A DNA stretch of 64,000 nucleotides from Fulvitalea axinellae. GTDB taxonomy: Bacteria > Bacteroidota > Bacteroidia > Cytophagales > Cyclobacteriaceae. Shown piece after piece: positions 1 to 63,799 of the stretch. A program made the position numbers and the translations under genes. The stretch is taken from NCBI RefSeq assembly GCF_036492835.1, contig NZ_AP025316.1:248001-312000 (forward strand), in the 5' to 3' direction. The notes beneath the pieces were generated by a model. It was not told the origin of the DNA. It ran no database searches and was given only the letters and a program-made list of their open reading frames with translations. The stretch's first letter is position 1, and each line of letters starts with the position of its first letter.

Positions 1-367
1 AGCATAACGCTTTTCCTTTACCATGGAAATCCTTTAGCGCTTGGATATCAGAAGCGGTGTAAGGCAAATTCACCTTGGTATTAAGGAAAATGTTCCAAGC
101 GTTTTTGCCCAAGCCACCGGCTTTCCCCGGCACCGGAAACGAGACGGTTTCGTATTGCCCGTCAGCGTCATCCAAGAAAGACAGGAAGCCCTCTTTGCTA
201 CCGAAGAGATTCGGGTCCCAATACTGCGACACATCGTTGATAACGTGCAGTACGGGCAGGTCGAACTTGTCTTCGCCGGGGGCGGTTACGTCAAGCTCGT
301 CCTCTTGGCAGGAGAACATCGCCGCGCCCGCGCAAAGCGCCAGTACAGATCTATATATATGTCTCAT
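1..367 (-). CDS. Terminal lipoprotein of left cassette, N-terminal fragment (cut by window edge)
   Basis: The reading frame starts at ATG 365-367 and is still open at base 1, giving about 122 residues. It begins with a lipoprotein signal (basic start, hydrophobic stretch, MFSC lipobox, Cys20) followed by acidic residues, typical of Bacteroidota surface lipoproteins. After it come motifs shared with the start of the complete protein encoded at 61796-63799: V(I/M)ND(V/L)S..W, GQY, and a (Y)xxxDI..LK segment. It is thus the left-hand member of that paralogue pair, and the rest, including any F5/8C domain, lies outside the window. It is the last gene of the left operon, 231 nt after the beta-helix gene, a wider gap than elsewhere in the operon. 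Function is unknown; a surface-exposed binding role is inferred from the paralogue. Confidence 0.75.
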   Translation of the reverse strand, partial: MRHIYRSVLALCAGAAMFSCQEDELDVTAPGEDKFDLPVLHVINDVSQYWDPNLFGSKEGFLSFLDDADGQYETVSFPVPGKAGGLGKNAWNIFLNTKVNLPYTASDIQALKDFHGKGKALC

Positions 368-525
368 CTTTTTTCAATAAAAAGTTTTTCGATAGTAAAG
401 GACAAAGAATACGGAGTTATCGGTATTAGGCCCTTGGGCTCTGTTTTATCACTCCTGATTTCTCTTTGGCCTTTATATCTTGTTACAAATTTATTGGGCG
501 CATGCAAAAATGCGGTGCGGTGAGC

Positions 526-545
526 GGACAGGCTAAGCCCTGTCC
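526..545. other. Short hairpin between beta-helix and terminal lipoprotein genes
   Basis: GGACAGG (526-532) and CCTGTCC (539-545) form a 7-bp perfect inverted repeat with a 6-nt loop in the 231-nt gap between two co-directional operon genes. There is no clear U-run directly after it on the minus strand, so it is not a convincing terminator. It could be an mRNA processing or stability element lowering expression of the last gene. Confidence 0.35.
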
Positions 546-598: not shown

Positions 599-2101
599 TC
601 AAAATATCGGCATATCGCACTTTTTGGCCGCCGGGCCACCAAGGGGCCCATCGTTTTTACCGGTATTGTTATCGAAAACAAAAGCGTCGCCGACGAATAC
701 CGGGCAAGCGCCGTTCATAACACGTATAGCGTTACCGTCTTCGGACGCTGAGTTATCGCGGAATATTCCGTTTCTGATCGTTACGCTCAGGTCCAAGTAA
801 AGCGCACCGCCGTATTTAGTATTGTTACCGACAAATTCGCACTCGTCGAAAGCCACACTGGCGTTTCTGTAAACCCTGAACGCTCCGCCGGCAGTGACAG
901 CGTTGTTTTCCACGAATACGCAACGGGTAAAGCGTGCTTCACTGGCCTGAATAAGCATCACACCACCATGGTGCGAACGGTTACCTTTGAATACACAATC
1001 CGTAAATCTTGGGCTTCCCTGCGTAAGGTCACATACGCCACCGTAAGTGCCGGCGCCATATTGGAAAGTAAAACCGTCAATTATGGAAGCGTCGAGCTTA
1101 TGGCCGTACTTACGGACGAAAATAGGAAGCTGATCTGCTGGATTACCTTCAAACATCGCCTCACGACCCACCAATGTCGGGTGGTCTTTAGGATCTCGCT
1201 GATCAAGCTCGGTCTCCGTCCCTGAAAAGCCTCCGTACATATCGAAGCCGCGCTTTAACGGAATTCCGAATTCCTTGTACAGGCCTTCGGCTACCCAGAT
1301 CTTGACTCCGAAAGGCACACTCTCAACAGCTGTTTTGAGGCTGGTATAGGCGTCAGTCCAAGACGTTCCGTCCCCTTCGCCTTTGGCGTCGATATCGACA
1401 TACACCACCGATTTGGCGGTAAAAGTCAAGGTATCGCTGGATACTGTTCCCAATTCGTTGGCGCCCACCAAGGTGTAGGCGTACTCAATACCGGGCTTCA
1501 GGTTGATAACGTCACCCTTAAGGGCTGTTCCCTCCCCTTTTTCGGCCTCGATTGTCCGCTCTTGGTCCAATGTTCCCTTTTCCCAAAGGTAAAAGCTGAC
1601 GGTAGACTGCTGGCTGTTGCCTTCGCTGACCAACTCGCCGGTGATAGTGGCTTTGTTAAAGGAAATGTAAGAAGGCTCGCCAATGCCGAGTTGCATCTTC
1701 TTTACGCTAGGGTCAACGGAGGTTTTTACCGTTAGCACGTCGCCTTCCTCTTTTGATACCTTATCTTCGGCGAAAGCCGTATAAGCGTAACCGGTGTACG
1801 ACTTCAGACCCGAAATCTTGGCCGTGAAGGTCTTGTCTGAGGCGTTGTATTCCGCCTTTACCGTCTTGAGCGTGCTTACGTCGCCCTGTACCCAGTAGTT
1901 GAAGCCGAAGCCTTCGGGCTTGGTAGCTCCCTCCGACCGCAAGATACCGCGAAGCTGGGCGCCTTCGGCCGTGATGTCGCGGGCTATTTCCGTCGTTACC
2001 TCCAGAAAAGCCTCGTCCACGACCTCCGGGTCGTTGTCTTTGTCGCAAGCCACAGCCAAAAACAGCAGGCCGAGGTATGCGAAGAATATATTTTTTCTCA
2101 T
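599..2101 (-). CDS. Right-handed beta-helix lipoprotein with N-terminal Ig/FN3-like domains
   Basis: 500 residues. Lipoprotein signal with an AVAC lipobox (Cys19) and an acidic DKDND tail, suggesting export to the outer membrane surface. About residues 30-120 and 135-228 are two similar beta-sandwich-like repeats (each with a TxEGAQL / KATITGEL type strand, then YAYT). From about 230 the segment VDIDAKGEGDGTSW marks the start of a domain common in Bacteroidota parallel beta-helix proteins, and the C-terminal half is rich in short helix-coil repeats (FTxCVF, GGAFRV, ITIRNGIFRDN). Such folds bind or process polysaccharides, but I see no catalytic signature of a pectate lyase or hydrolase. It is 171 nt downstream of susD-2 and is paralogous to the 519-residue protein at 60160-61719. 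Substrate unknown. Confidence 0.8.
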   Translation of the reverse strand: MRKNIFFAYLGLLFLAVACDKDNDPEVVDEAFLEVTTEIARDITAEGAQLRGILRSEGATKPEGFGFNYWVQGDVSTLKTVKAEYNASDKTFTAKISGLKSYTGYAYTAFAEDKVSKEEGDVLTVKTSVDPSVKKMQLGIGEPSYISFNKATITGELVSEGNSQQSTVSFYLWEKGTLDQERTIEAEKGEGTALKGDVINLKPGIEYAYTLVGANELGTVSSDTLTFTAKSVVYVDIDAKGEGDGTSWTDAYTSLKTAVESVPFGVKIWVAEGLYKEFGIPLKRGFDMYGGFSGTETELDQRDPKDHPTLVGREAMFEGNPADQLPIFVRKYGHKLDASIIDGFTFQYGAGTYGGVCDLTQGSPRFTDCVFKGNRSHHGGVMLIQASEARFTRCVFVENNAVTAGGAFRVYRNASVAFDECEFVGNNTKYGGALYLDLSVTIRNGIFRDNSASEDGNAIRVMNGACPVFVGDAFVFDNNTGKNDGPLGGPAAKKCDMPIF

Positions 2102-2272: not shown

Positions 2273-3835
2273 TCAATCCTTTTTCAACTCTGGCATTACC
2301 AGCTTCCAGTTGTCTTGCGAAGACAGCTTTTCTTTCAGTCTGGCATAGAGCTGCGGATCGTTCTGCTTGTATTTCGAAGCTACCCTTTCGGCCAAAATCA
2401 ACGGGGCACCCGCCCTGTCGGCGAAACGGACCAGCGTGTTCCAACGACGGCCTTCGAAGGCGAATTCCATCGCCCGCTCTTCCAAAAGGGCCAGTTCCAC
2501 CAACGCTTTCTCGTCAGAGGCCAAAGCGGGGTTCTGGTCTTTCAAATCCACCATCCTGACCGGCTTTAGGCCTACCCGTCCGCGGATTCCCACCGACTCT
2601 TTTACGCCAACCGTCTTTTCGTTGATTACCTTAAGGGCATCCTCGCTTTGGCCGGATTGGTTAAGCGCCTCGGCAAGAAGCAAGTGCAAGTCGGCGGCGC
2701 GGTAGATCGTGTGCACGGCGTCGTTTTGGTTGACACTTTTTCCCACTTGGTATTTATAAACGATTGTATCCTTATCCATTACGGCATAGGAAGCCAATTG
2801 GCCCCTGTACAAGTCGCCTTCCAATATTCCCGAACCGTCTTTCAGCTCTTGGGCTTCCCATTTGGCCACGGCCACCCGCGAGGGCTTCAAAACATAACGG
2901 TGGATTTTGTCATTGGAGAAAAGATTCATCAAACGGTTGGTCTGGCGCTGATCCTTGGCAAAAGGGATTACAGACAGGTGCTCGAAACCACTCACCCCGT
3001 CCTTAATCTTAAACCAAGAGCGTTTCCATGCGGATGTTCCCGAGACAGGAGCGCACTTCAGAACGTCTTCGTCCGCATCATTGCCATCGTTTAAGATGCA
3101 GTCTTTCAACACATCAACCGAGGCGTTAAAATTACCCGTTAGAAGGTATAGCTCTCCCAGCAACGCTTTCCTGTTGATATAAACCTTTTTCCAAACGGGG
3201 TTTTCGTCCAGCGCTGTCCAGTCGAGCCTCGATTTCTCATTAGCCCATTCCAACTCCTTTACCAGCCAGTTGAGCATAGTGGAGAAATCGTAAACGCGGG
3301 GTTCGTAGCCGGGAAAATGGCCGTCGAGGCTCTCTTTTACCATCGGCACTTCCTTGAAAGTCTGCGCCAGCTGTAGGTAAACCCATGCCCGGATCGTGCG
3401 AATCTCGGCCTCGTAGGCTTCAATCTTCAGCTCGGTCATCTTCGGATCGACAGCGGATTTTTCCAGATTGGCCAAGATGTCGTTGCAATCCAGAATCACG
3501 TCGTAAAACGGGTCCGGACTGGCGTAAGGGTTGTTGGCCGATATTTCGTGCTTGTCAATTTCCAGAAGATCCGCGTCGTAGTTCTGGGTAGTTACCAGAA
3601 GGTCGGCGCGCAGATCGCCCATCACTATCAACGACTCGACCAAAGGCTGAAGGCCAGCGTATGCGCCGACAGTAGCGCGGCGCACTTTGTCGAGAGAATT
3701 ATAGTGTTCGTCCTTTTCCTGGATGAGATCCTGCTCGGGATTGAAGAAATCTGAGCAGGAAAACATCGATACGCAGAGCAGTGCCGTAAAAAGGCCCCGT
3801 AATCCGCTATTAAGGTTGTTACTGGTTTTCATCAT
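2273..3835 (-). CDS. SusD/RagB-family nutrient-binding lipoprotein (second pair, left cassette)
   Basis: 520 residues. The lipobox is MFSC (Cys27), directly followed by SDFFNPEQD, the usual start of mature SusD proteins. The N-terminal part has TPR-type helices (GDLRADLL, WVYLQLAQTFKEVPM); the C-terminal part has the SusD signature IRGRVGL, LLEERAMEFAFEGRRW. SusD proteins are lids on SusC channels and capture oligomeric ligand at the cell surface. It follows the SusC gene at 3843-6965 by 7 nt, so the two are translationally close and form a pair. Close paralogue of the protein at 58554-60122, sharing GDLRADLL and the positions of all helices. ATG codons at 3835 and 3832 are both possible starts. 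Ligand unknown. Confidence 0.93.
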   Translation of the reverse strand: MMKTSNNLNSGLRGLFTALLCVSMFSCSDFFNPEQDLIQEKDEHYNSLDKVRRATVGAYAGLQPLVESLIVMGDLRADLLVTTQNYDADLLEIDKHEISANNPYASPDPFYDVILDCNDILANLEKSAVDPKMTELKIEAYEAEIRTIRAWVYLQLAQTFKEVPMVKESLDGHFPGYEPRVYDFSTMLNWLVKELEWANEKSRLDWTALDENPVWKKVYINRKALLGELYLLTGNFNASVDVLKDCILNDGNDADEDVLKCAPVSGTSAWKRSWFKIKDGVSGFEHLSVIPFAKDQRQTNRLMNLFSNDKIHRYVLKPSRVAVAKWEAQELKDGSGILEGDLYRGQLASYAVMDKDTIVYKYQVGKSVNQNDAVHTIYRAADLHLLLAEALNQSGQSEDALKVINEKTVGVKESVGIRGRVGLKPVRMVDLKDQNPALASDEKALVELALLEERAMEFAFEGRRWNTLVRFADRAGAPLILAERVASKYKQNDPQLYARLKEKLSSQDNWKLVMPELKKD

Positions 3836-3842
3836 CCAAAAT

Positions 3843-6800
3843 TTAGATTCCCAACTTAACTCCCATCATCAGCGTAGCCACCTGCGGCACCTTCCCGTAG
3901 TCCACGCCTTGGAGCATCACGTTGCCGTTGTACGACACGTCGGGGTTGGTTCCCAGATACTTGGAAAGCGTAAGCAGGGTGTTGCCGGACACGTAAGCGC
4001 TGAGCGATCTGACGATTTTGCTGTCGATATCGAAATCGTAGGCCACCGTCACGTTTTTGAGGCGGATGAAGGATCCGTCCTCGATCCAGCGATCGGAGAA
4101 ACGGGCGTTGCCCATCGGGTCGCCAAAACGGGCTCGTGGCATATCTGTCCGCTGGCCGTCCACTCTCCAACGGCGCTCTACGGAGGCGCTTTGGTTTTTG
4201 TAGTCGGTCATAGATTCCATACCGCGGCGTGTGTAGTTGTAGATGTCGTTGCCCGAAACGAAGTCCCAAAGCATGCTGGCGCTGAACCTCTTGTAGCGGA
4301 GGCTGGCCGATATGGAGCCGAAGAAATCCGGCTGTGCACTTCCGATGGCGGTACGGTCGTCTTCGTTTATCACTTTGTCTCCGTTGGTATCCTGAAAACG
4401 GATATCGCCGGCACGGAATGGATTTCCGTAACGGTCGGTAAGTCCCAATGCTTCGGCCTCCTGTGCGGAAGCTATCACTCCCATAGACTTATAGCCGAAG
4501 AAAGTATTGATAGGTTGGCCTACTTGGGTTATCACTTGTCCGCCGTGAATATCCGTGATGATATGTTGGCCGTAACGGCTGTTGTTCAAGGCGTTGTCAC
4601 CAAGCGCCGTTACCTCGTTGGTATTCTTGGCGAATGTTCCGCCCAAAGTCAAGATCAGGTCCTTGGTCCGGATAACGTCTACATTAAGACCGAGTTCCAC
4701 TCCGGTGTTTTCCACCGAACCGGCGTTGCTGAACAGCGGATTGCTACCATAAATGGAAGAAAGTGGCATAACTGTAAGCAAGTCGTCGGTAACGGACTTG
4801 TATACATCGACGCTGGCACGTACCCTTGCGCCGAGCATATCCACATCGAGGCCAACGTTGGTCTGCGTAGTGGTTTCCCACTTAAGGTCGGTACTCGGAA
4901 TACCGTTACGCTTCGCGCCCGACACGCCCATAAACGGCACGGCCACGTAGTAGAAACGGGACGAGTAGTATCCGATATCGTCGTTGCCCGTAAGGCCGTA
5001 GCTGGCGCGGAGCTTCAGGTCATCCATAAAGCTGACATTGGCCATAAACGGCTCGGAAGTGATTCTCCAAGCTCCGGAAACGGACGGGAAAGTGGCGTAA
5101 CGCTCGTTAACGCCGAATTTGGAATTTCCGTCCACCGATACGTTTACGCTCAGGTAATAACGGTCGAGGTAAGCGTATTCGGAAGAACCGAAGAAGCTGA
5201 TCATATTCCAGCGGCCGTTGTTCGGCTCAAGATCTCGGAAGGTTTTGTCGCCGCGACCGATCACGGTAAAACGGTCCGAAGGAGAGTTGATATCGGTAGC
5301 GAGTTCCTCTTCAAGGTCGCTCATCTTCAGTCTGGACCCCACACGGACATTAATCTTATGCTTGAACCCGAAGGTTTTCTGATAATTCAAAGAAGCCTCC
5401 GAAAGCATAGACAGGAACTGGCGCTGACCGCTACCCATCAGGTTGCGGGCATAGCCGTCGAGTTGCGAAACCACGCCCGTTTCCGGTACGAAGGAGTTCT
5501 CCTTAAGGTTAAACAAGTCAACGGTGGCATTGAACCTGAAATCAAGACCTTTGGCGATATTCTGAACGGCGTCGGCGCCGGCGCGCATACGGAAATCGTT
5601 GTGACTCCCGATTCCGTTATCGATAATCGAACGCGGATTACTTACGCCAAAGGCGCCCACCTCATCATAAAACGGCAAAGCGTAGCCTTTTTCGCTTCGG
5701 CGATAAACACCCATCATCGGCGACTTGTGCAATGAGGCCAGTCCCGGGTTGATAGTCTCGTTATACCCCTCGCCCCTAAGATTGGAGCTAATACGCGAAA
5801 GCGACACTCTTGGCCTAACGGTTAGGCTTTTGAGTAATTTGATCCGGGCGCCGATAGAGAAGTCAAACACTTCGAAATCAGTCTCCTGAACCACGTCCTG
5901 ATTTTTGGTATATCCTACCGAAAGATTATAGGAAGCGATATCGTCACCGCCTTGGATGTCCAAACCGTATTGGCTGGTCAGCGATGTTTTCCATACTTCA
6001 TCTTGCCAGTCGGTATCACGGTCATAGCGATGGAATTCCTCGCCTTCGGCCTGATTTACCATAAAAGGATGCTCGTCGGCGATATCCTCATAACTCATAT
6101 CGGCTCCGTACATCTGTTCCAAAGCCAGATTACGGAACTCGGAAGCGTTAAGCAAACGGTGTTTTTCCGGAGCGAAGCGTGTGCCTATACTGGCCGAAAA
6201 GTCTACCCGTGTTCTCTTAACGTCACTGTCCTTGGTATAGATCAGGATAACTCCGTTGGCTGCCAAACTTCCGTAAAGGGCCGTGGCACCGTCTTTCATA
6301 ACAGTCACCTGAGCGATATCCCTGATATTGATATTGGCCAAAGGATTGAAAACGTACCCGTCCACGGCGCTAACCGAGCCTAGATTGGTTTCGTATATCA
6401 CGCCATCAACCACGATCAAAGGCTGAACATTACCGGACATGGAGCCGGCGCCGCGCAAAGTCATGGTTCCGCCAGAAGCGGAAGTTCCTGAGCGTGATTC
6501 CACCATAAGGCCAGGCACCATTCCCTGCAAGGCCTTGTCCAAAGTCAGATAGCCTTTGCGGTCAAGATCCGAAGCCGTAAGGGTGACTCCCGCGCCGCTA
6601 AAATCGCGAAGCGGAGCATAGCCGGAAGGCGTCCGGACAATATCGTCGGCGGAAAGGCCGGCGACGGGCTCCAGGCGTATAGACACAACCGAACGGCCGT
6701 TGAGATAAACCCTTTTGGTCTTGAAACCGGCGTAGGCGAATTCCAAGGCCACTTCCTGAGTCGATGACAGGGGCAACTCGTAGCGACCTTCGGCGTCGGT

Positions 6801-6965
6801 AAACGTAGACACGCCGTCACTGCCTATCAAGTTGACCACTACACCTTCCAAAGGCGCTACGCCCCGGAAGTTCGCCACCGTGCCGGACACTTTGTCCTGG
6901 GCTATCACATGCCCGGAACACAGCAAAGCCACGATGACCCATATATTTGTCAAAATTTGTTTCAT
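3843..6965 (-). CDS. SusC/RagA-family TonB-dependent outer-membrane transporter (second pair, left cassette)
   Basis: 1040 residues, normal SusC size. Signal peptide ending near VIAQ; carboxypeptidase-regulatory-like domain (about 25-105, EGVVVNLIGSDG, FTDAEGRYELPL); plug domain (about 110-250) with the SusC signature TLRGAGSMSG, PLIVVDGVIYE and VMKDGATALYGSLAANGVI; then a 22-strand-type barrel ending in GVKLGI. It imports ligand energised by TonB-ExbBD, with SusD (2273-3835) as lid. The plug and barrel match the protein at 55382-58534 throughout, with shared DTDWQDEV and FSDRWIEDGSF, but differ clearly from the first SusC of the same operon. This suggests a different ligand form or size from the first pair. 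It starts 25 nt after the FAS1 gene at 6991. Confidence 0.95.
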   Translation of the reverse strand: MKQILTNIWVIVALLCSGHVIAQDKVSGTVANFRGVAPLEGVVVNLIGSDGVSTFTDAEGRYELPLSSTQEVALEFAYAGFKTKRVYLNGRSVVSIRLEPVAGLSADDIVRTPSGYAPLRDFSGAGVTLTASDLDRKGYLTLDKALQGMVPGLMVESRSGTSASGGTMTLRGAGSMSGNVQPLIVVDGVIYETNLGSVSAVDGYVFNPLANINIRDIAQVTVMKDGATALYGSLAANGVILIYTKDSDVKRTRVDFSASIGTRFAPEKHRLLNASEFRNLALEQMYGADMSYEDIADEHPFMVNQAEGEEFHRYDRDTDWQDEVWKTSLTSQYGLDIQGGDDIASYNLSVGYTKNQDVVQETDFEVFDFSIGARIKLLKSLTVRPRVSLSRISSNLRGEGYNETINPGLASLHKSPMMGVYRRSEKGYALPFYDEVGAFGVSNPRSIIDNGIGSHNDFRMRAGADAVQNIAKGLDFRFNATVDLFNLKENSFVPETGVVSQLDGYARNLMGSGQRQFLSMLSEASLNYQKTFGFKHKINVRVGSRLKMSDLEEELATDINSPSDRFTVIGRGDKTFRDLEPNNGRWNMISFFGSSEYAYLDRYYLSVNVSVDGNSKFGVNERYATFPSVSGAWRITSEPFMANVSFMDDLKLRASYGLTGNDDIGYYSSRFYYVAVPFMGVSGAKRNGIPSTDLKWETTTQTNVGLDVDMLGARVRASVDVYKSVTDDLLTVMPLSSIYGSNPLFSNAGSVENTGVELGLNVDVIRTKDLILTLGGTFAKNTNEVTALGDNALNNSRYGQHIITDIHGGQVITQVGQPINTFFGYKSMGVIASAQEAEALGLTDRYGNPFRAGDIRFQDTNGDKVINEDDRTAIGSAQPDFFGSISASLRYKRFSASMLWDFVSGNDIYNYTRRGMESMTDYKNQSASVERRWRVDGQRTDMPRARFGDPMGNARFSDRWIEDGSFIRLKNVTVAYDFDIDSKIVRSLSAYVSGNTLLTLSKYLGTNPDVSYNGNVMLQGVDYGKVPQVATLMMGVKLGI

Positions 6966-6990: not shown

Positions 6991-8433
6991 TTATTCCCTT
7001 ATCGGTACCATAAACAGGTTCCCGATTCCCAATTTGTATTTTCCAGCGGTATTGGCGTCCGTTACCTCAAACTTCAGGATCCGCCCACCGAATTGGTCGA
7101 AGCTTCTGCCTTTAAACCAGTTTCCGAATTCGCTGGTCGGCTTGAAACTGCTAGTCAAGATCTTGCCGTCCAGAGTAAGTTTGCTAACAGACGGATCGTC
7201 GGTAAAGCCTTGGATCCGCAACGCGTACTTGCCAGCCATCAGGCCACCTATTCCGTAATCGCAACTGAAGGGTTTGTCCGAAGTAAGCACTCCGTAGTTT
7301 ACTCCGTTGCCGCTTACCACAAGCTCGAAATCCACTTCGGCGCCGTTGTCATATACCCTGAAATTGGAACGGATAGAGCCGTCGGCGACAATTATTTTTC
7401 CCATCTTATCGGACATCAGCACGTCAACGTGATCCATTTCGTAGAGAAATCCGTTACTGCGCTTTTTCGGATTATTGTCCAGCCAGTTTTGGGTTACCAC
7501 TATCTTGCGTCCGTTGGTGGTGCGCAGGGTATCTCCTACGGCCAAGTCCGCTTCCGGGGCCTCGACCAAAGTCGCTTCCAGAAGCGCTTCGCGGAAACGC
7601 TTGTTCCATTCTTTGTCCTTCAGCATTCCGTCCGGCGCGTTGGACGCGTCGCCATAATAGCGCTCCACCAACTTGTCGAGTGTGGCTAAAAAGGCATCTT
7701 CGTCATAGGCTACGCAGGAGAATTTACGGTCCTCGTCCTTGATGTCGCCCACTTCCGTACGATACAAGAAGTCAGTGACCCAAGCGGAATCGTAAACCGT
7801 TTCACCATATTTATTAGTCCCTACCGGAAAGCTGTTTTCCTTATCGAAAACCAAGGTGTCCTTGAGCAAATACTCCCTGAATTCCTCAAAATCACCCGGC
7901 AATTCGGACACCGCCTGAAAAATACTTTTCGGCGGTTCCAACACATGGTCGATCTTGTAAACCACGCCGTTTGAGCAAAGGATGGGATCACCTTGGGTAT
8001 TGGTCGACAGATCGATACGGATAGCGCCACCGCTTTTTTCGGCCCAGATGTTTTTTCCTTTATAAAGGGACTTCACATACAGGTCTTTTCCGTCCTCGAT
8101 TTGGAAATCGTAGAGCAAAGTGTTCCCGATATGGTAGGAAAGCACGCTCTTCATGGAATCTTCGGAAATGGAAAGCCCTTCCAAAGCGCCCTTGGGCGGA
8201 ACGAAAAACGTAACCGGACGTTTGCCCGAAACGCTGTCCATATATCCGTGGCGCTTCAATAAGTCGGCGATGCCGGCGGTCTCGGCGTCGGAAGCCAAAA
8301 ACTCGCCCACGGTCATTTTCCGCACAAGACCGTCGCCGTTGTCGTCTATATAATCATCCCGCTCGTCGCAAGCCCAAAACGCCAGAGCCAGCGCGGCAAA
8401 GAGAATCGTATTTCTTATGAAAGAATTTCTCAT
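6991..8433 (-). CDS. FAS1 (fasciclin) domain lipoprotein, third FAS1 of left cassette
   Basis: 480 residues, exactly the length of its paralogue at 53914-55356. Lipobox FWAC (Cys22) and acidic ERDD tail. The first FAS1 domain (about 35-170) shows the usual elements: VTFFVPPKGALEGL, LSYHIGNTLLY and SNGVVYKIDHVLEPP. A second FAS1-like region (about 170-340) has TVYDSAWV, RYYGD and a final GFLYEMDHVDVLM. The C-terminal 130 residues contain LMAGKYALRIQGF and LTLDGKIL, resembling a galactose-binding or CBM-like beta-sandwich (inference). FAS1 domains mediate protein or glycan adhesion; next to SusCD such a lipoprotein is probably an accessory surface-binding subunit. It starts 6 nt after the preceding FAS1 gene. 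Confidence 0.85.
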   Translation of the reverse strand: MRNSFIRNTILFAALALAFWACDERDDYIDDNGDGLVRKMTVGEFLASDAETAGIADLLKRHGYMDSVSGKRPVTFFVPPKGALEGLSISEDSMKSVLSYHIGNTLLYDFQIEDGKDLYVKSLYKGKNIWAEKSGGAIRIDLSTNTQGDPILCSNGVVYKIDHVLEPPKSIFQAVSELPGDFEEFREYLLKDTLVFDKENSFPVGTNKYGETVYDSAWVTDFLYRTEVGDIKDEDRKFSCVAYDEDAFLATLDKLVERYYGDASNAPDGMLKDKEWNKRFREALLEATLVEAPEADLAVGDTLRTTNGRKIVVTQNWLDNNPKKRSNGFLYEMDHVDVLMSDKMGKIIVADGSIRSNFRVYDNGAEVDFELVVSGNGVNYGVLTSDKPFSCDYGIGGLMAGKYALRIQGFTDDPSVSKLTLDGKILTSSFKPTSEFGNWFKGRSFDQFGGRILKFEVTDANTAGKYKLGIGNLFMVPIRE

Positions 8434-36157: not shown

Positions 36158-36166
36158 GTACCGTTT

Positions 36167-37621: not shown

Positions 37622-37663
37622 ATAAGGAGGTATCCGATAAAGAACAGTCTAGCCGTGTAGACG

Positions 37664-37701: not shown

Positions 37702-37736
37702 AATATAAAGATATTCAGAAACGGAAAATGCTTGTT

Positions 37737-38756: not shown

Positions 38757-38769
38757 AGTACTCTACCGT

Positions 38770-44083: not shown

Positions 44084-44135
44084 AAAAAAGTCCTCTCTAT
44101 AAGAGCGTATACACTTTTATAGAGAGGACTTTTTT
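44084..44135. terminator. Bidirectional terminator between phosphonate operon and licD-like gene
   Basis: AAAAAAGTCCTCTCTATAA (44084-44102) and its reverse complement (44117-44135) form a 19-bp perfect stem with a 14-nt loop, flanked by A-run and T-run, so it terminates both convergent units. Confidence 0.9.
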
Positions 44136-44151
44136 AGATGAGCTGATGCGA

Positions 44152-55381: not shown

Positions 55382-58300
55382 ATGAACAAGTATATACACT
55401 TTTTCTTATCCGTTACTTTGGCCTTGTTGGTCGGCTTGCCGGGGGCTTGGGCCCAGGACGCCGGCCAAACGGTCAGGGGACGGGTGCTCGATGCCAGATC
55501 GAAGGTGCCTTTGGAGGGCATTAAGGTGACGGTGCCCGGCACGCAGGCCGAAGGCACAACCAACGCCGAAGGTGTTTACGAGATAAAAGTGCCGGCCAAA
55601 TCGCCCGCGCTGGAATTCGTTTTCGCGGATTATCAGACCAAAAGGGTACACGTTTACGGACGTGAGACCGTTGACGTTTCGCTTTTCCGTATCGGCGAGT
55701 CGGTTTTGGGCGAGCAGGTCCATACGCTCGACGGCGACAAGCCTCTCAGGGGATTCGCCAACGCAGTGGCCGTTATCTCCGGCAAGGATATCGTAAAGCA
55801 GGGATACATTACCTTGGACCAAGCCATTCAGGGCATGGTGCCGGGCGTAATGGTGCGTAGCCGTTCCGGGCATCCCGGAGCGGGCGGTGATATGAGTATC
55901 CGCGGATTCGCTTCCATTAGCGGAAATTCTTCGCCGCTGATTATCGTGGACGGTTATATCTACGAAACCCGCTTCGGCGACGATTCCCCGATCGACGGAT
56001 ACCGTTCCAATCCTCTGGGCGGTATAAACCCCCGCGATGTGGAATCTGTGACCGTAATCAAGGACGGAACGGCCGGCTACGGAGCCATGGGCGCCAATGG
56101 AGTGATCATGATCGAGACGCTTCGTCCGGATTTGTCGAAAACTTCCGTAAACGTGGGCTTGTCTACCGGCACGGTGTTTAAGCCTGAATCTATGCCTGTG
56201 TTGGACGCTTCGCAATACAAAAACTACGGCTTGGAACAGCTTCAGAGCCAAGGCCTGACTTATGCCGAGATAATGGAGAAATATCCGTTTATGGTGGATC
56301 AGGCTGTTTTGGCGGAAAAACACCGCTACAGCCACGATACCGACTGGCAAGACGAAGTGTTGCAGGGCGGAATGTTCAACAACTTCAACATTAGCGTAGA
56401 AGGCGGTGACAACGTAGCCACTTACGCCCTCGCCGCCGGATACACTAGCAAAGACGGCGTAATCAAAAACACCGATTACGACCGTTACGATCTGCGCTTT
56501 AACGCCGACCTTAAGCTCTTGCAAAAACTTACGGTAAGGCCTCGGATCAATTTTGCGTATACAAATAACACTATGCGTGACCAGGGCGTGAATTCGACGG
56601 TGAACCCGTTTACCGCAGCCATGGCCAAGTCGCCGATTACCGGGCCGTTCAAGATGAGCGATTTCGGCGTGGCGCTTCCGCATTACGATCCTGTGGACGC
56701 CTTCGGGTTCAGCAACCCGCGCTCATTGGTCGATAACGTAAAAATCAGCGACGATAACTACCGCATGTTTATCGGTATGGACGCCACTTACGCCATCACC
56801 GACGCATTTAGGGTGGTGGTTTCCGGAAATATCGACTTTATGAAAGGGCGGATCAACCGCTTTATCCCGAAAACTGGCGTAGTGCCGCAGGTTTCGGGCG
56901 AGGCGCTTAACTCTATGGACGCCTTGGTTCGCCGTTATCTTTCTTACTATGGAGAAGGCCGTCTGGATTATTCGAAACTCTTGGCCAAAAGGCACTCGGT
57001 ACGCTTGGTAACGGGCGTTCGCGTAAAAACCAGCGAATTCGAAAATGACTTGGGACGGGATATGAACTCCGCTTCCGACGAATTCACTACCGTCGGCCGT
57101 AGCGAGAAATTCGAAACCCGAAGCGTGTCGGGCGGAGAGTTGCTGAACAACTGGGCGTCATATTTTGCCAGAGGCAATTACGCCTACCTTGATAAATATT
57201 ACCTCTCGGCTTCGGTATCTGTGGACGGATCTTCCCGATTTGGCCAAAACAATAGGGTAGGCGTCTTCCACGCCGTTTCCGGTGCTTGGAGAGTGTCGTC
57301 GGAGTCGTTTTTGAATAAAATCAGAAACCTCGACGACGCAAAACTCAGGGTAAGCTACAGCCTTACCGGCAATGACGATATCGATCCGAACGCATCTAGA
57401 TATCTGTATGTAGCCAGTCCGTATAGCGATATTTCGGGCTTGGTTCGGGGAAATGTTTTTAACCCGAATCTTCAGTGGGAAAGCCATAAGCAAATCAACT
57501 TTGGCGGTGATATTTCCCTGTTTGGCGAAAGGGTCCGCGTTTCTGCCGATTATTTCGAATCGGAAATCACCGATATGGTGAATTATGCGCTGTTGCCGGT
57601 GGTTTACGGCCAGACTTTCTACGCCTCGAACGGCGGAGCGATGGAAAACAAAGGCTGGGAAATAGGCCTGAACGTCCGCGCTTATGACCGTGGCGAAACC
57701 AGTGTGGATTTCGGTTTTAACATTGCCAAATACGAAAATAAAGTAACCTCTCTGGCCGATAACAAAGCCACTCAAATCAGCGAGACGGGCGTTTTGGGCA
57801 AAGAACCGTATCAGTTGTTGGATATCAACGGCGGGCAAGTACTTACGCAAGTCGGCCGTCCGGTTAACTCGTTTTACGGATTCCAGACCGCCGGCGTATA
57901 CACTACCAGCGAGCAAGCCGCCGCCGACGGTTTCAAGAATTTCAAAAAGGAATCTTTCCGCGGAGGCGATATCCGCTTTGTGGACCAAAATGGCGACAAG
58001 ATTATCGATGACCGCGACAAAACCGCAATCGGATCTCCGCTTCCGGATATGTTCGGTTCTTTCCTGACCAATTTCAGGCACAAAAGGATCAGCGTACGGA
58101 TGCTTTGGGATTTCGCCTACGGCCACGACGTGTTTAACTACACGCGTATGAAGATGGAATCGATGTCCGGCATGGGCAACCAAAGCGAGGCTGTGGCCAA
58201 CCGCTGGCGCCGTGAAGGGCAGCAGACGGACATCCCGAGACTGGCCTACGGCGACCCGATGGGCAACGCTGCGTTTTCCGACCGTTGGATTGAGGACGGA

Positions 58301-58534
58301 TCTTTTGCCCGCTTGCGCGATTTGACCGTAAGCTACGATTTCCGTTTGCCGAACAAGAAAATATTCCAAAGCGTAAACGTCTTTGCCTCAGGTCAAAACC
58401 TGCTGACCCTTACCGACTATTTGGGCGCTACGCCGGACGTAAGCCCAAGCGGAAACGTAATGCGCCTCGGCGCCGACTACGGAGGCGTTCCCTTCAGCGC
58501 TTCGCTCATTTTCGGGGTAAATATTGGTTTGTAA
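55382..58534 (+). CDS. SusC/RagA-family TonB-dependent outer-membrane transporter (second pair, right cassette)
   Basis: 1050 residues. Signal peptide (to AWAQ), regulatory-like domain (EGIKVTVPGTQAEG, TNAEGVYEIKV), plug with SIRGFASISG, PLIIVDGYIYE and VIKDGTAGYGAMGANGVI, barrel ending FGVNIGL. Shared DTDWQDEV and FSDRWIEDGSF with 3843-6965. Forms the second SusCD pair with 58554-60122, 19 nt downstream. It differs from the first SusC of its operon, as in the left cassette, so the two pairs were both present before the cassette duplicated. Confidence 0.95.
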   Translation: MNKYIHFFLSVTLALLVGLPGAWAQDAGQTVRGRVLDARSKVPLEGIKVTVPGTQAEGTTNAEGVYEIKVPAKSPALEFVFADYQTKRVHVYGRETVDVSLFRIGESVLGEQVHTLDGDKPLRGFANAVAVISGKDIVKQGYITLDQAIQGMVPGVMVRSRSGHPGAGGDMSIRGFASISGNSSPLIIVDGYIYETRFGDDSPIDGYRSNPLGGINPRDVESVTVIKDGTAGYGAMGANGVIMIETLRPDLSKTSVNVGLSTGTVFKPESMPVLDASQYKNYGLEQLQSQGLTYAEIMEKYPFMVDQAVLAEKHRYSHDTDWQDEVLQGGMFNNFNISVEGGDNVATYALAAGYTSKDGVIKNTDYDRYDLRFNADLKLLQKLTVRPRINFAYTNNTMRDQGVNSTVNPFTAAMAKSPITGPFKMSDFGVALPHYDPVDAFGFSNPRSLVDNVKISDDNYRMFIGMDATYAITDAFRVVVSGNIDFMKGRINRFIPKTGVVPQVSGEALNSMDALVRRYLSYYGEGRLDYSKLLAKRHSVRLVTGVRVKTSEFENDLGRDMNSASDEFTTVGRSEKFETRSVSGGELLNNWASYFARGNYAYLDKYYLSASVSVDGSSRFGQNNRVGVFHAVSGAWRVSSESFLNKIRNLDDAKLRVSYSLTGNDDIDPNASRYLYVASPYSDISGLVRGNVFNPNLQWESHKQINFGGDISLFGERVRVSADYFESEITDMVNYALLPVVYGQTFYASNGGAMENKGWEIGLNVRAYDRGETSVDFGFNIAKYENKVTSLADNKATQISETGVLGKEPYQLLDINGGQVLTQVGRPVNSFYGFQTAGVYTTSEQAAADGFKNFKKESFRGGDIRFVDQNGDKIIDDRDKTAIGSPLPDMFGSFLTNFRHKRISVRMLWDFAYGHDVFNYTRMKMESMSGMGNQSEAVANRWRREGQQTDIPRLAYGDPMGNAAFSDRWIEDGSFARLRDLTVSYDFRLPNKKIFQSVNVFASGQNLLTLTDYLGATPDVSPSGNVMRLGADYGGVPFSASLIFGVNIGL

Positions 58535-58553
58535 TCGAAAAAGAGATACGGAC

Positions 58554-60122
58554 ATGAGAAAGAATTTTAAAATAACGATCATAACGTGCCTGCTATCCCT
58601 GATCGCGGCGCCGTTCCTTACTTCCTGCTCGGACTTCTTCGAGCCGGAACAGGAGCACGCCGTAAACAAGGACGATCGGTACAAATCGCTTTTCGATATT
58701 CAGACAGGCGTTCTGGGCGCTTATTCCAAGCTTAGGAATGTTGCGGAGCAGACGATCATTTTGGGCGATCTGCGCGCCGACCTTCTGCAAGTTTCGGAAA
58801 ACTACGACGCCGATCTTTCGGAACTGGACAAAGTGACCGTGACCAAAGGGAACCGTTTTGTGGATTCCAGAGGGTTTTACGATATCATCCGCAACTGCAA
58901 TGACATGATCGCCAATATGGACGGCGTGATGAAAAAAGACGCCGCCTTTACCGAAGTAGTCCGCGACGCCCACAAGGCCGAGATGATCACGCTTCGTTCT
59001 TGGGCGTATTTGCAGTTGATCCGCATGTACAAGGAAGTGCCCGTGACCAATCACGAGCTTGACCAAGTGTACGAAGGCGAGGAAATCTACGAAATGTACG
59101 ACCGCTCCCGGATGCTCAACTGGCTGGCCGAACGCATGAACTGGGCCATACAGCAGGAGAGCCTGAATTACAGCAACTTCGAGGGCACGCTCTGGCGTAA
59201 GCAGTTCGTAAACAGAAAAAACCTCTTGGGCGAAATCGCCCTGGAATTGGGCGCTTACGGAGATGCCGTAAACCTGTTTATCGATACGATTGTCAATTTT
59301 GGCGGAGGCCAAAACAATAGCGACCTGAAGTGCGAAGGCTTTACGGGTGACGATTGGGAGGAAACCTGGTCTACATCCACAAGCAACTATTCGGAAAAGC
59401 TCTCCTATATTCCTTTCAGAAAATCGAACAAGCAGCAGAACGATTTGGAGATGTATTTCTCATCGAAAGGAAAAGGCAAATACCTGCTTCGGCCTACTGA
59501 CAGGGTAATCGAGCTCTGGAAAGCGCAGGTACGCAAAGACGGAAGCTTGGGCGATCTGAAAAGAGGTCTTGGAGGTTCGTTTACCTCTTCGGAGTTTGAC
59601 GCTGACAAAAAAGTCTATATCGATCCGGAAGTGAGCAAATACCAATTCGACAAAAAGCCGTTTGAGTCTGACGCTCAGGTGACTATTTACACCGCTTCAG
59701 ACGTGCATCTGATGTTGGCCGAAGCCTTGAACCGTAACGGGGAGCACCGTCGCGCGTTGGGCGTGGTGAACAACAACGCCGACAACGTGACGGGAATAGA
59801 TAAATCGGCCGGTATACGCGGCCGGGTGGGCTTGGAGAATATCGACTTGCTCAAATTCACGGGCTTGGACAAAGCCACGCAACTCGATTCCATGCTTGTG
59901 ATCGAAGACGTGATCGTAAGGGAACGCGCTTTGGAGCTGGCTTTTCAGGGGCGCCGTTGGTACGATCTGATGCGGGTGGCGCGCCGCCGTAACGATCCGG
60001 ACTTTTTGGCCAAGCGAGTGGCCGAACAGTTGGGCGACGAGGGCGAAGCTCTCAGGCAAAGGCTCCGCAACTCGGACAACTGGTACTTGCCGTTCGATAT
60101 GTATGCCAACCAAGGCAATTGA
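58554..60122 (+). CDS. SusD/RagB-family nutrient-binding lipoprotein (second pair, right cassette)
   Basis: 522 residues from ATG 58554; a frame opening at 58524 overlaps the SusC stop and precedes the signal. Lipobox LTSC (Cys25) followed by SDFFEPEQE, as in the left paralogue. Motifs GDLRADLL, IRGRVGL and LAFQGRRWYDLMRVARRR fit the SusD C-terminal signature. The paralogue at 2273-3835 has 520 residues. It is the lid of the second SusC channel. Confidence 0.93.
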   Translation: MRKNFKITIITCLLSLIAAPFLTSCSDFFEPEQEHAVNKDDRYKSLFDIQTGVLGAYSKLRNVAEQTIILGDLRADLLQVSENYDADLSELDKVTVTKGNRFVDSRGFYDIIRNCNDMIANMDGVMKKDAAFTEVVRDAHKAEMITLRSWAYLQLIRMYKEVPVTNHELDQVYEGEEIYEMYDRSRMLNWLAERMNWAIQQESLNYSNFEGTLWRKQFVNRKNLLGEIALELGAYGDAVNLFIDTIVNFGGGQNNSDLKCEGFTGDDWEETWSTSTSNYSEKLSYIPFRKSNKQQNDLEMYFSSKGKGKYLLRPTDRVIELWKAQVRKDGSLGDLKRGLGGSFTSSEFDADKKVYIDPEVSKYQFDKKPFESDAQVTIYTASDVHLMLAEALNRNGEHRRALGVVNNNADNVTGIDKSAGIRGRVGLENIDLLKFTGLDKATQLDSMLVIEDVIVRERALELAFQGRRWYDLMRVARRRNDPDFLAKRVAEQLGDEGEALRQRLRNSDNWYLPFDMYANQGN

Positions 60123-60159: not shown

Positions 60160-61719
60160 ATGAAAAAGAACGCTTATATCATATTGTTGCTTCTGGGGTT
60201 TTCGGCTTGGCTGGGCGCCTGCTCAAAAGACGACGGCCCGGACGAAGAGGTGAAGAAACCCAAATGGGAAATCACGACCAAAGAAGCCTCGGCGGTTGAC
60301 ATCTCAAAGGCCACTATTTCCGGCGAGGTGACTTCCAAAGGCATTGGGAATATCGAGAAAGTGTATTTCTCATATTGGGAACAGGGCAACTTGGCTTCTT
60401 TGAAAAAAATAGACAGCGAATTGGCCGAAGACGGCAAGACATTCTCGCTGGCGCTGGAAGAACTCAAGACCCTGACTACCTACGCCTACAAGCCGGTGGT
60501 GAAGCTGGAAAGCACATTGGAGCTTGAGGGCGAGATCCTGTCTTTTTCCACGCTTGTGGATGAGAATATTACCGAACCGGTGGTGAAAACCATGGGAGTG
60601 GATAAAATCTCATATCAAGGTGGCTTGATGAAAGGCGAGTTGGTATCCACTGGCGAGTCCAATTCCGTGGAATACCTGTTTGTGGTTTGGGAAGAGGACA
60701 AAGAGGAGCAAAACTTCGCCGCTACTTTGGCCGATGACGGAAAAACCATCGAAGCCATGCCTACGCTCAACCCGAATACCACTTACAACTACAAAGTGGT
60801 GGCCATAAACGAAAGGTTTATCGGTCAGGGGGAAGTAAAGCAATTCACCACCGGAAACCGCATTTACATTGACGTAAACGCCGACGGAAAAGGTGACGGC
60901 ACCACTTGGGAAGACGCTTTTACGGAATTCACTTCCACGATTTCCAAAATCAAGGCTCCCGATCTTGAGATCTGGATGGCCGAAGGAACCTATTACGTAA
61001 CGGGTCACGCCAATCTTTGGCAGGAGAATATCCGCTTTTACGGTGGTTTTGAGTCCGGAGCCGCAACGCTTAGCGACCGTGACCCGAAAGCCAACGAAAC
61101 CGTAATCGACGGACGTGATATTCGCGGAAGCGGAAATGACATGATCAAGACCAATCGGGGTTCGTTGGAAAATCCGACATTGTTCGACGGCTTGATATTC
61201 CAAAACGGAAAAGGCGGTGACGGTGTGGCTCTTAGCGCAGATCGCCCTGTAGTGGTCAAAAACTGTGTTTTCCGTGAAAATGAGTCACGTTATGGAGGTG
61301 CGGTGATTATTTTCAGCACCAGCGCCACTTTTGAAGATTGTTTGTTTACGAACAATCACGCACGTGGCCATTCCGGCGCAGTGCTTAACGTACAGGGCGG
61401 AGGCAAGCGTGGCGACGAGATGAAAATCCTTTTCGAGCGTTGCAAATTTGCGGGCAATACGGCAAACGGTCGCGCTGGCGCCGTAGGAAACGAAAAACAC
61501 GGCGGAGCGAGAGCCCCGTATTACAGCCCGATTTTCAGGGATTGCCAGTTTGTCAACAACAAGTCGAACAACGGTCAGGGCGGAGCGCTGTCAAATTGGT
61601 CGGAGATTTTCCCGCTTTACGAAGGCGTAAAAGTTTGGGAAAACGAGGGTGGCCATTGCCACGCCAATACCGACGGCGCCTGTGGCGGATTGATAGAGGA
61701 AGAGATACCTGTAAATTAG
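60160..61719 (+). CDS. Right-handed beta-helix lipoprotein with N-terminal Ig/FN3-like domains
   Basis: 519 residues. Lipobox LGAC (Cys21), tail SKDDGPDEE. Two N-terminal beta-sandwich repeats (about 35-130 and 145-232), then VDVNADGKGDGTTWEDAF-type entry (written IYIDVNADGKGDGTTW in the sequence) and a parallel beta-helix with GLIFQNGKGGDG, FEDCLFTNNHARGH and FERCKFAGNTANGRAGA. The C-terminus is rich in Gly/Cys. No catalytic signature recognised. It is 37 nt after SusD-2 and 76 nt before the last gene; the left paralogue at 599-2101 has wider gaps on both sides. Confidence 0.8.
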   Translation: MKKNAYIILLLLGFSAWLGACSKDDGPDEEVKKPKWEITTKEASAVDISKATISGEVTSKGIGNIEKVYFSYWEQGNLASLKKIDSELAEDGKTFSLALEELKTLTTYAYKPVVKLESTLELEGEILSFSTLVDENITEPVVKTMGVDKISYQGGLMKGELVSTGESNSVEYLFVVWEEDKEEQNFAATLADDGKTIEAMPTLNPNTTYNYKVVAINERFIGQGEVKQFTTGNRIYIDVNADGKGDGTTWEDAFTEFTSTISKIKAPDLEIWMAEGTYYVTGHANLWQENIRFYGGFESGAATLSDRDPKANETVIDGRDIRGSGNDMIKTNRGSLENPTLFDGLIFQNGKGGDGVALSADRPVVVKNCVFRENESRYGGAVIIFSTSATFEDCLFTNNHARGHSGAVLNVQGGGKRGDEMKILFERCKFAGNTANGRAGAVGNEKHGGARAPYYSPIFRDCQFVNNKSNNGQGGALSNWSEIFPLYEGVKVWENEGGHCHANTDGACGGLIEEEIPVN

Positions 61720-61795
61720 GTTTGGTGTATCGGAGAGGCCGGTAAATTGGGCTGGCCTTTCCCTTTTTTCACACTGATTCAAAAAAGAAAATGAG

Positions 61796-63799
61796 ATGAA
61801 AAGATATACGGGAATATTTTTCTTGTTCTTCGCCGCGGTTCTTTTCGCTTGCGACGAAGACGAGATTGTCAAAGATTACAGACCGATAGAGGACTCTTAC
61901 AAAGGCCAGCCGGTTTATGTGATGAACGATCTTTCGCACCATTGGAATCTGTTTCTCCAAAGCTCTTCCCAAGACGATGGGGTAAAGGGATTCGCTCGCT
62001 ATCTGGATACTTCCAAAGGGCAATATATGCAGACCTCGTTGGGTAATTTGCGGGATTTGAGTCCGCTTGACGTTTCTATCCTGAACGTAATGCTCAACTC
62101 CGATTTCGTGGGCGGATATTCGCCGGAAGATATCGCTAACTTGAAATCCGTACCCGAAAATGGCGGAAGCCTTTGTTTTTTCTATTCTGGCGAAGCCAAA
62201 AAACTGGACGGCGTAAACACGTTGGGAGCGGAGTTCGGCTTTACGATGACGGCTGGAGACGTGGCCGTTCCGGTCAAAACCACGGGCGAGCTCGGCGCTT
62301 CGGGCACAGATGTGGCCATAGCGGGCAAAGGGGCAAAACTTACGCTTGCGACTCCCGCCGACTGGAAAATCGTGATGAAGGACGCCGCCGGCGAGGCTGT
62401 GATGGCTTACCAGGAGTCCGGTTCGGGAAAGGTTCTCGTTTCTGCGGTCAATATCTTCGGACAGGACGCCGACGGAAACCTCCTGAATGACGCTTTGGTG
62501 AAAGCGATGGTTCCGGAGCTGTCTAACGGAAAAATTGGGCCGGCTTCTAACAGTGTTTTATTGAAAAAAGTACTGGGCAAGCGCAATTTCGTTCAGGACA
62601 AAGTGACGCTTTTGACCAACGATTATCAGCAAAATTATGGTGAAGATTTGAGCGCTTTGCTCGATGACGCATTCAAGGGTGTGGATGACTATCTGGAACT
62701 TGAGGCTAAGAGCAATAAATTCAGTGTAGATCTGCTTTCTACAGACCAAAAGATAATCAAAAGCGCTGATCGTCTGAGTGTTGGTTTGTTTTATAGCGGT
62801 TATCCGGATTCTAAGGAAGGAATGGTTGAGCAGTTCATCACAGCCATAGCTGACAATTGGATGCTTTACAAAGACCCGATCGAGGACGAAGCTTTGAGAG
62901 TTTATCTTTCCGCTGTTGTCGCCAAATCGAAAGGACTTGACAGTGACAAGATTTTAATGCCGTATCTGGCATTGGCCAATGATCCTGCAAACGCTCAGAA
63001 GCTCAAGGAGTATGATCCTATAACCATGACGGACGAGCAAAAAGCAACTTTCCCCAAAGATCTCCGCCTGGCTAAATATATCAAGGCGTTGGTTGGCATA
63101 ACTGAGGATTTCGGCCCGGAATCTTTATCAAAATACCTTACGATGCAGGACGAAGTGGTGCCGAAGTCGGAATCGTATGACTTTACCGGCCATGATGCCG
63201 TCTGGATTTGGGATAAATTGGCCAAAGACAAAAATGAAGACGCCGACCTGTTTCCGCTTTTCAACCAGATGGGCTATATGGCTAACCGCGATAAAGTAAC
63301 CCTGCCAGCCTCACTCGGTGCCGATTATCTCGACCGCTCCGAGTGGGAAGTTATCTTCGCTTCCGATGAAGAAACAATCGGGGAGGGTAGTGCCAAAGGA
63401 TGGGCCCGCAACGCGTTTGATGGTAATAAGGGAACCAATTGGCATTCGCAGTATAGGCCTAGTTCTCCGGGTTTCCCTCATGAAGTGCAATTTGATATGG
63501 GCAAAGAGGCCACGGTTATCGGTTTCTCAAAAGAAGGCCGAAAGCAATTCTTTAACGGCCTGATTGGCAAGTTTGCCCTTTACGTTTCCAACGATCTCGA
63601 CGATTGGGGAACGCCCGTAGCGACAGGCGAGTGGAAGAAGGTGACTTACGACGAACTGGTAGTTTATACTACGGCCCAGAAAAAAGGCCGATACGTTCGC
63701 TTTGTGGCTCTCACGCCACTTATTGACCCGAACGGTGGTAATCAGGACCCGAAGGCTATGGTAATCTCAGAATTTAAGGTTATCGGTGTTGAAGAATAA
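61796..63799 (+). CDS. Lipoprotein with C-terminal F5/8-type-C (discoidin-like) domain, last gene of right cassette
   Basis: 667 residues. Lipobox LFAC (Cys19), then DEDEIVKDY. Residues about 35-230 (YSPEDIANLKSVPENGGSL, KVLVSAVNIFGQDADGNLL) look like a class I glutamine-amidotransferase-type fold as seen in some surface glycan-binding or M60-like proteins (tentative). A helical middle region (about 240-500) has no recognised family and no HExxH site. The C-terminal 145 residues are an F5/8C domain: ARNAFDGNKGTNWHS, HEVQFDMG, and GRYVRFVAL, a carbohydrate- or lipid-binding jelly roll. A role in binding glycoconjugates is inferred. Followed by the terminator at 63850. Confidence 0.75.
   Translation: MKRYTGIFFLFFAAVLFACDEDEIVKDYRPIEDSYKGQPVYVMNDLSHHWNLFLQSSSQDDGVKGFARYLDTSKGQYMQTSLGNLRDLSPLDVSILNVMLNSDFVGGYSPEDIANLKSVPENGGSLCFFYSGEAKKLDGVNTLGAEFGFTMTAGDVAVPVKTTGELGASGTDVAIAGKGAKLTLATPADWKIVMKDAAGEAVMAYQESGSGKVLVSAVNIFGQDADGNLLNDALVKAMVPELSNGKIGPASNSVLLKKVLGKRNFVQDKVTLLTNDYQQNYGEDLSALLDDAFKGVDDYLELEAKSNKFSVDLLSTDQKIIKSADRLSVGLFYSGYPDSKEGMVEQFITAIADNWMLYKDPIEDEALRVYLSAVVAKSKGLDSDKILMPYLALANDPANAQKLKEYDPITMTDEQKATFPKDLRLAKYIKALVGITEDFGPESLSKYLTMQDEVVPKSESYDFTGHDAVWIWDKLAKDKNEDADLFPLFNQMGYMANRDKVTLPASLGADYLDRSEWEVIFASDEETIGEGSAKGWARNAFDGNKGTNWHSQYRPSSPGFPHEVQFDMGKEATVIGFSKEGRKQFFNGLIGKFALYVSNDLDDWGTPVATGEWKKVTYDELVVYTTAQKKGRYVRFVALTPLIDPNGGNQDPKAMVISEFKVIGVEE

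Follow-up and report, generated by a model that had tools for sequence, protein, structure and literature searches.

A double-SusCD, triple-FAS1 gene cassette recurring as whole units in Fulvitalea axinellae, a candidate glycan capture-and-import system

Sus-like systems and polysaccharide utilization loci (PULs) of Bacteroidota are built of SusC-SusD pairs and surface lipoproteins, and FAS1 (fasciclin) proteins are familiar chiefly from the matrices of animals and plants. Here we describe a nine-gene cassette with two SusCD pairs and three FAS1 proteins from Fulvitalea axinellae, which is present twice in a 64,000-nucleotide stretch of contig C3 (C3:248001-312000, henceforth referred to as the window) and at further loci of the genome (7,394,227 bases in 15 contigs, given as 99.66% complete). 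We consider, with a probability of about 0.6, that the cassette is a glycan capture-and-import machine that has been amplified into a set of diverged receptors.

A first-pass annotation of the window had described two nine-gene cassettes on opposite strands, and both are present on the strands and in the order it gave (henceforth Left, on the minus strand, and Right, on the plus strand). Pfam assigned genes 1-8 of both cassettes to FAS1, SusC (Plug/CarboxypepD_reg), SusD, FAS1, FAS1, SusC, SusD and beta-helix proteins, respectively, and gene 9 of Right to an F5/8-type-C protein; gene 9 of Left is cut at the window edge (1-367), and the genome has it in full (642 aa, C3:246439-248367, locus L019). 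In both cassettes SusC proteins with Plug and CarboxypepD_reg domains adjoin SusD, and this SusCD module has homologues in 15/15 copies found in the genome. The lengths of the open reading frames (ORFs) in the first-pass annotation match ours, except where the longest ORFs extend further upstream (753 aa for Left gene 1, 725 aa for Right gene 1 and 532 aa for Right SusD2). Position 45493 looks a better start for Right gene 1 than 45448; it is an ATG inside the longest ORF, and the signal-peptide region comes after it. Protein identity between Left and Right is 29.9, 52.4, 47.9, 31.4, 32.6, 45.2, 38.5, 28.5 and 27.8% for genes 1 to 9. The 25-nt spacer before SusC2, which had been taken as a likeness of the two cassettes, is real in both, but it means little because this spacer ranges from -32 to 83 nt over the 15 copies (with longest-ORF starts).

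The picture of exactly two copies was an effect of the window, since the genome contains 15 loci. A search of the genome for the fasciclin (FAS1) domain gave 80 hits at E <= 0.001, all within 15 clusters, and in the 20 kb fetched at each cluster genes 1-7 lie on one strand and in order in 15/15 cassettes, followed in order by genes 8 and 9 in 14 of them. In the fifteenth copy (L018, C3:46000-65999) genes 8 and 9 are missing and genes 1-7 are followed by other genes. The cassettes are distributed over five contigs (C1, of 4.87 Mb, has eight, C3 three, C5 two, and C2 and C6 one each), and their 133 genes occupy 271,808 bases or 3.68% of the genome and account for 30 of its 67 SusD hits. All cassette genes are open frames of similar length across copies (gene 1 of copy C1_3745, incomplete in the stretch fetched first, is full in a later one), and two open SusC frames are retained in 15/15 copies. 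The copies nevertheless differ, with a mean identity per gene of 32-54%, a SusC1 identity of 45-72% among the 14 nine-gene copies and flanks that are mostly unrelated between copies. These identities, the mostly differing flanks and the completeness of the genome rule out chance assembly and an assembly artefact.

Left and Right had been proposed to represent an old duplication kept whole, and of this proposal the inheritance as a unit stands and the duplication of one pair does not. Nine single-gene trees all give identical clades of eight and of four copies (FastTree support at least 0.98), and therefore the cassette was inherited as a unit; the pairwise-identity matrices of any two genes correlate with a Spearman coefficient of 0.66-0.90. 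However, Left and Right are not sisters, and they split at or near the base of the 14-copy clade. Right ranks 9th to 13th among the relatives of every Left gene and is the nearest in 0/9 genes, the nearest copies being C1_3114, C6_208, C1_3914 or C1_1888, and Left is the nearest relative of Right for gene 6 only. Trees and identity ranks thus rule out a pairwise Left-Right duplication: the Left genes are closer to other loci, an outcome that the first-pass annotation had itself named as contrary to the pairing, and those loci are further copies of the cassette. In a tree of SusC1 and SusD1, made by a quick method from 45 of 49 rows (without four near-copies from a single genus), the 14 nine-gene copies form one clade (SH-aLRT 100), at the base of which Right, the 4-copy clade and a 9-copy clade meet in an unresolved fork; Left lies inside the 8-copy clade, itself within the 9-copy clade, and the seven-gene copy L018 groups with two copies of another genome, G029 (100), apart from the other 14. 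The same groups appear in a FastTree built from all seven core genes, where Right is the first branch. Since all nine gene trees share the 8-copy and 4-copy clades, the simplest account is that genes 8 and 9 were joined once, followed by copying of the complete unit to dispersed loci. Divergence is greater in the receptor genes than in the transporter genes.

Outside F. axinellae, a search of the family recovered a (nearly) full-length gene 1 from 6 of 148 other genomes (11 copies), and a search of a phylum sample recovered one from 7 of 394 other genomes (8 copies); the best 7 and the best 2 candidates per genome, respectively, were scored. Each of these genomes has one or two copies among the best candidates scored, and the maximum of two is firm for the family search only. 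At 19/19 hits the seven-gene core FAS1x3-SusC-SusD-FAS1-FAS1-SusC-SusD is in order, with gene 1 of L094 cut by the end of the fetched stretch; the contigs of the G029 cassettes end shortly past SusD2. Among 80 named loci, drawn from 206 relatives, genes 1-5 are in order at 14, including loci of Mucilaginibacter arboris, Pinibacter soli, Niastella and Pedobacter cryophilus, and several more are cut by contig ends. Two of the 14 depart from the regular form, with gene 1 in two frames at L156 and a core SusC1 split into two consecutive ORFs covering model positions 1-593 and 607-1071 at L163 (Bacteroidales UBA1794); L160 and L161 contain relatives over about 70% of gene 1 outside the core order.

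Genes 8 and 9 are distributed more narrowly. Gene 9 was found at full length only in F. axinellae among 98 other family and 394 other phylum genomes (best 12 or best 3 candidates per genome scored), and its alignment A3 matches elsewhere via the F5/8C domain, with one exception in genome G283 (positions 98-205, E 9e-6). Gene 8 was likewise found at full length only in F. axinellae among 148 other family genomes (best 10 candidates per genome scored), with partial matches in others. A relative of 548 aa in G029 (L233, G029:C411, 4865-6511) extends over positions 3-412 of 504, and gene 8 is therefore not wholly unique; this relative is free-standing, with the core genes absent from the fetched 20 kb, and possibly shows gene 8 in its source state. 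We also rejected the idea of a cassette carried on plasmids of other bacteria, as the plasmid collection, from which the window's own records may be excluded, contained no match over 80% of Right gene 1 or gene 9.

Predicted structures add to the evidence for a glycan ligand. The model of Right FAS1b (gene 5) contains two FAS1 domains and, at the C-terminus, a beta-sandwich resembling carbohydrate-binding modules (CBMs) of families 6 and 35, and the fold matches of this C-terminal domain include a CBM35 solved with anhydrogalacturonate, among others. The predicted fold of gene 9 includes an M1-like gluzincin catalytic domain. The HExxH zinc motif was found in 0/14 gene 9 copies, and by its sequence gene 9 would accordingly be a pseudo-gluzincin and not an active M1 or M60 metallopeptidase. 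An assignment of gene 9 to M60 was rejected because PF13402 had no match in the genome or on the 14 copies; M60 structures are absent among the fold matches listed, which leaves an M60 fold possible. A lipobox regular expression matched 30/30 SusD proteins.

In relatives the core adjoins genes for PL11 and PL4 rhamnogalacturonan lyases, GH31, GH2, an esterase, GH28, GH88, GH115, PcRGLX and DUF4861 (92 of 96 selected ORFs of 11 outside cassettes were scanned, the four longest being omitted; PL11 at L093 and PL4 at L095 were scanned separately). Of 17 outside cassettes tested, 10 have a PL11 or GH28 gene no more than 20 kb away: 6 of 15 PL11 hits (0.26 expected) and 12 of 64 GH28 hits (1.04 expected; 64 of 66 outside rows were used, as two were fragments of the same frames) are near outside cassettes. 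In F. axinellae, no enzyme family was found in the window cassette genes scanned with Pfam, and no glycan enzyme among the 25 commonest of 126 families from 102 downstream ORFs (of 103 selected, one SusC being omitted). Upstream, a few of 48 selected ORFs were scanned singly.

On the reading that we favour, each cassette would build one outer-membrane capture-and-import machine. Its two SusCD pairs would, to judge by their family, be lid-and-barrel TonB-dependent importers, and its three FAS1 lipoproteins would form a scaffold and receptor on the surface, the third ending in a predicted CBM fold. We infer import of glycans because this is the established behaviour of SusCD systems and because of the predicted folds. 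The seven-gene core, which elsewhere in Bacteroidota often lies beside enzymes for rhamnogalacturonan-I/pectin and in most copies here would be without them, would most simply have acquired the beta-helix and the IFT52/pseudo-gluzincin/CBM32 surface lipoproteins once, before the whole unit was copied to 14 dispersed loci and its receptors diverged more than its transporters. The likeliest use would be a receptor repertoire for structurally varied glycans, acidic or bearing galactose, or for fragments of glycoconjugates, which enzymes encoded mostly at other loci would trim. Differing specificities are suggested solely by the divergence of the copies; it is possible that each copy is tuned to one form of a single ligand. 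A more far-reaching version is tentative and in our view more probably wrong than right: a separate double-SusCD class of import machine ('FAS1-SusCD'), dispersed over the phylum, would have FAS1 proteins as its scaffold, and in Fulvitalea this machine would have been freed of enzymes, given a pseudopeptidase-CBM receptor and amplified to a 14-member repertoire reading variants of host or algal glycoconjugates.

Several results weigh against glycan capture and import as the function. The PL11 and GH28 counts are not independent, and their nominal P values (1e-7 and 5e-10) are too small because three of the genomes share one genus; both families are absent within 20 kb at 7 of the 17 outside cassettes, and G029, the nearest genome by core, is without PL11 or GH28 anywhere. 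PL11 is absent from the F. axinellae genome (in which PL4, PL9 and PL26 were not searched), and its three GH28 genes are near no cassette (at least 77 kb away), and therefore the substrate of the relatives need not apply to F. axinellae. The downstream result covers the 25 commonest families only, and the enzyme-free condition has exceptions: cassette C1_2684 is flanked by a GH42-like ORF upstream and GH116-like and GH88-like ORFs downstream (loci L012, L103 and L118) and may, because of these ORFs, be an ordinary enzyme-bearing locus, and some kb past C1_908, C1_2341 and Right lie a GH3, a sulfatase and an MGH1/GH63-like ORF, respectively. No upstream motif common to all copies was found. The lipobox test is crude, as it matches 2/15 SusC2 proteins and just 8/15 gene 1 proteins (three inside the signal peptide).

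The enzymes of the relatives could also be read more simply, as a sign that all copies import plain rhamnogalacturonan-I or pectin with the degrading enzymes elsewhere in the genome. This would explain why the core of relatives adjoins PL11, PL4, GH28, GH88, GH2, GH115, PcRGLX and esterase genes, and it agrees with the anhydrogalacturonate-bound CBM35 among the matches of FAS1b, with the three GH28 genes and with the two GH88-like ORFs after the C1_2684 cassette. We nevertheless regard it as improbable, given a genome without PL11 (the other pectin lyase families with the limit stated above) and with GH28 near no cassette, the addition of genes 8 and 9, and a SusC1 spread of 45-72% over 14 copies, which seems much for one substrate. 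Scarcely better placed, and likewise unlikely, is an import of glycoproteins, proteoglycans or peptides in the manner of RagAB, in which the pseudo-gluzincin, LamG and FAS1 proteins would hold a protein-bearing matrix (for example of a marine animal) while SusCD imports glycopeptides: HExxH is missing in 14/14 gluzincin folds, a PF13402 search of the genome gives no M60 peptidase and the relatives' cores adjoin polysaccharide enzymes.

The cassettes might instead mainly display FAS1, beta-helix and CBM lipoproteins for attachment or antigenic variety, as adhesins or variable surface proteins. Each cassette indeed encodes seven non-SusC proteins of lipoprotein type, the receptors are the most diverged, and the FAS1, beta-helix and LamG folds resemble those of adhesins. 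However, 15/15 copies keep two open SusC frames that are co-inherited with the receptors, and there is no reassortment of the main clades from gene to gene; this is the least probable account by some distance.

If glycan capture and import is the function, FAS1 proteins gain a testable role in bacterial glycan uptake, through a seven-gene core that a minority of genomes, from several families of the phylum, possess. The expansion to 14 copies amounts to a natural experiment in which one machine has diverged as whole units inside one cell, and receptor specificity can therefore be compared while the transporters are homologous. A further question is why there are so many importers with so few adjoining enzymes.

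The features of the window are given in Table 1.

Table 1. Positions of the Left and Right cassettes and an adjoining gene in the window
Feature	Position	Strand	Remarks
Left gene 1, triple-FAS1 lipoprotein	14608..16869	-	longest ORF; first-pass start 16761; PF02469 1.7e-30; 15 paralogues
Left gene 2, SusC1 TonB-dependent transporter	11398..14598	-	Plug, CarbopepD_reg_2
Left gene 3, SusD1	9949..11394	-	PF07980 9.1e-34
Left gene 4, FAS1a lipoprotein	8440..9945	-	PF02469 3.3e-27
Left gene 5, FAS1b lipoprotein	6991..8433	-	PF02469 5.8e-11
Left gene 6, SusC2	3843..6965	-	Plug
Left gene 7, SusD2	2273..3835	-	PF07980 1.7e-17
Left gene 8, beta-helix lipoprotein	599..2101	-	PF13229 3.9e-7; alignment A4
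Left gene 9, first part only	1..367	-	in full L019:440-2368, 642 aa
LamG protein upstream of Left gene 1, optional neighbour	17487..19544	-	PF13385 5.3e-17
Right gene 1, triple-FAS1 lipoprotein	45448..47625	+	likely start 45493; PF02469 8.2e-41
Right gene 2, SusC1	47636..50860	+	Plug, beta-barrel
Right gene 3, SusD1	50881..52362	+	PF07980 1.3e-34
Right gene 4, FAS1a	52366..53880	+	PF02469 2.5e-27
Right gene 5, FAS1b: FAS1-FAS1-CBM35/CBM6-like	53914..55356	+	PF02469 1.8e-16; model pLDDT 88.6; fold matches
Right gene 6, SusC2	55382..58534	+	Plug
Right gene 7, SusD2 (longest ORF)	58524..60122	+	PF07980 8.5e-13
Right gene 8, beta-helix lipoprotein	60160..61719	+	PF13229 3.1e-9
Right gene 9: IFT52-like, gluzincin-like fold without HExxH, CBM32	61796..63799	+	PF00754 1.7e-15; model, fold matches

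LamG proteins are frequent neighbours: in 6/15 cassettes (Left, L119, L120, L125, L126 and L127) one lies, in either orientation, upstream of gene 1 at a distance of no more than 3 kb, which is far above chance given a hand count of about 25 LamG ORFs genome-wide (P ~8e-9), and a shorter relative is present at C1_908. Several LamG-domain proteins are also clustered on one contig, G000:C8 (hits at 1.2-15.5 kb). C1_2684, the sole cassette with several glycoside-hydrolase-like ORFs, is the best entry point to the substrate; one of its two GH88-like ORFs was scanned and the second assigned by cluster. At L118, upstream of the same cassette, a protein belonging to cluster cl9, another member of which Pfam identifies as a hybrid two-component regulator, is split over adjacent ORFs of 384 and 752 aa and is possibly a broken gene. 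An FGGY sugar kinase adjoins C1_1888. A shared upstream element was rejected, as the similarity is merely local, mostly at the signal-peptide region and between near copies, and so was a dedicated regulator, as a pair of cl6 and cl11 ORFs lies directly upstream of one cassette only (C1_3914); cl6 is an ECF sigma factor by Pfam on another member, and cl11 is, at a guess, FecR. In L018, genes 1-7 are followed by one cl6 ORF, one cl11 ORF and another SusC.

Contig C3 (437,430 bases) is a secondary replicon, marked by a Rep3 initiator and ParA in mid-window (36125-39690); in the plasmid collection its longest Rep3 matches, to Persicobacter and Aureibacter plasmids, share only 31-37% identity. Just upstream of Right (40548-45066), genes for a PEP mutase with a cytidylyltransferase domain, a TPP enzyme that is phosphonopyruvate-decarboxylase-like by position and an Fe-ADH lie beside a LicD gene. 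These are likely to serve phosphonate biosynthesis and, with LicD, possibly the phosphonate decoration of a surface glycan.

The gene order had been put forward as undescribed, and although genes 1-7 prove to be a core found again, if rarely, across the phylum, we found no account of it: the literature found on FAS1 or fasciclin in connection with SusCD, PULs, pectin or rhamnogalacturonan does not describe the core, in a search that left most subscription journals and the PUL databases outside. The sole PUL found with a FAS1 gene drawn with SusD is in PMC4891872, where, in the parts available to us, FAS1 is just a legend abbreviation and the double-SusCD/triple-FAS1 core is not described; in the accessible parts of PMC10199937, 'fasciclin' appears in the reference list only.

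FAS1b resembles periostin and TGFBIp, which are FAS1 tandem proteins, in a structural comparison only, and differs from them in being a bacterial lipoprotein with a C-terminal CBM fold. The relatives' core shares with rhamnogalacturonan-I/pectin PULs its position beside PL11, PL4, GH28, GH88, GH2, GH115 and PcRGLX genes, whereas Fulvitalea is without PL11, has no GH28 near its cassettes and carries the extra genes 8 and 9. Like Sus-like systems and PULs at large, the cassette has SusC-SusD pairs with surface lipoproteins, and in relatives its core lies beside carbohydrate-enzyme and esterase genes. Unlike them, it interleaves two SusCD pairs with three FAS1 lipoproteins in a fixed order, and in Fulvitalea it is enzyme-free inside and present in 14 whole-unit copies.

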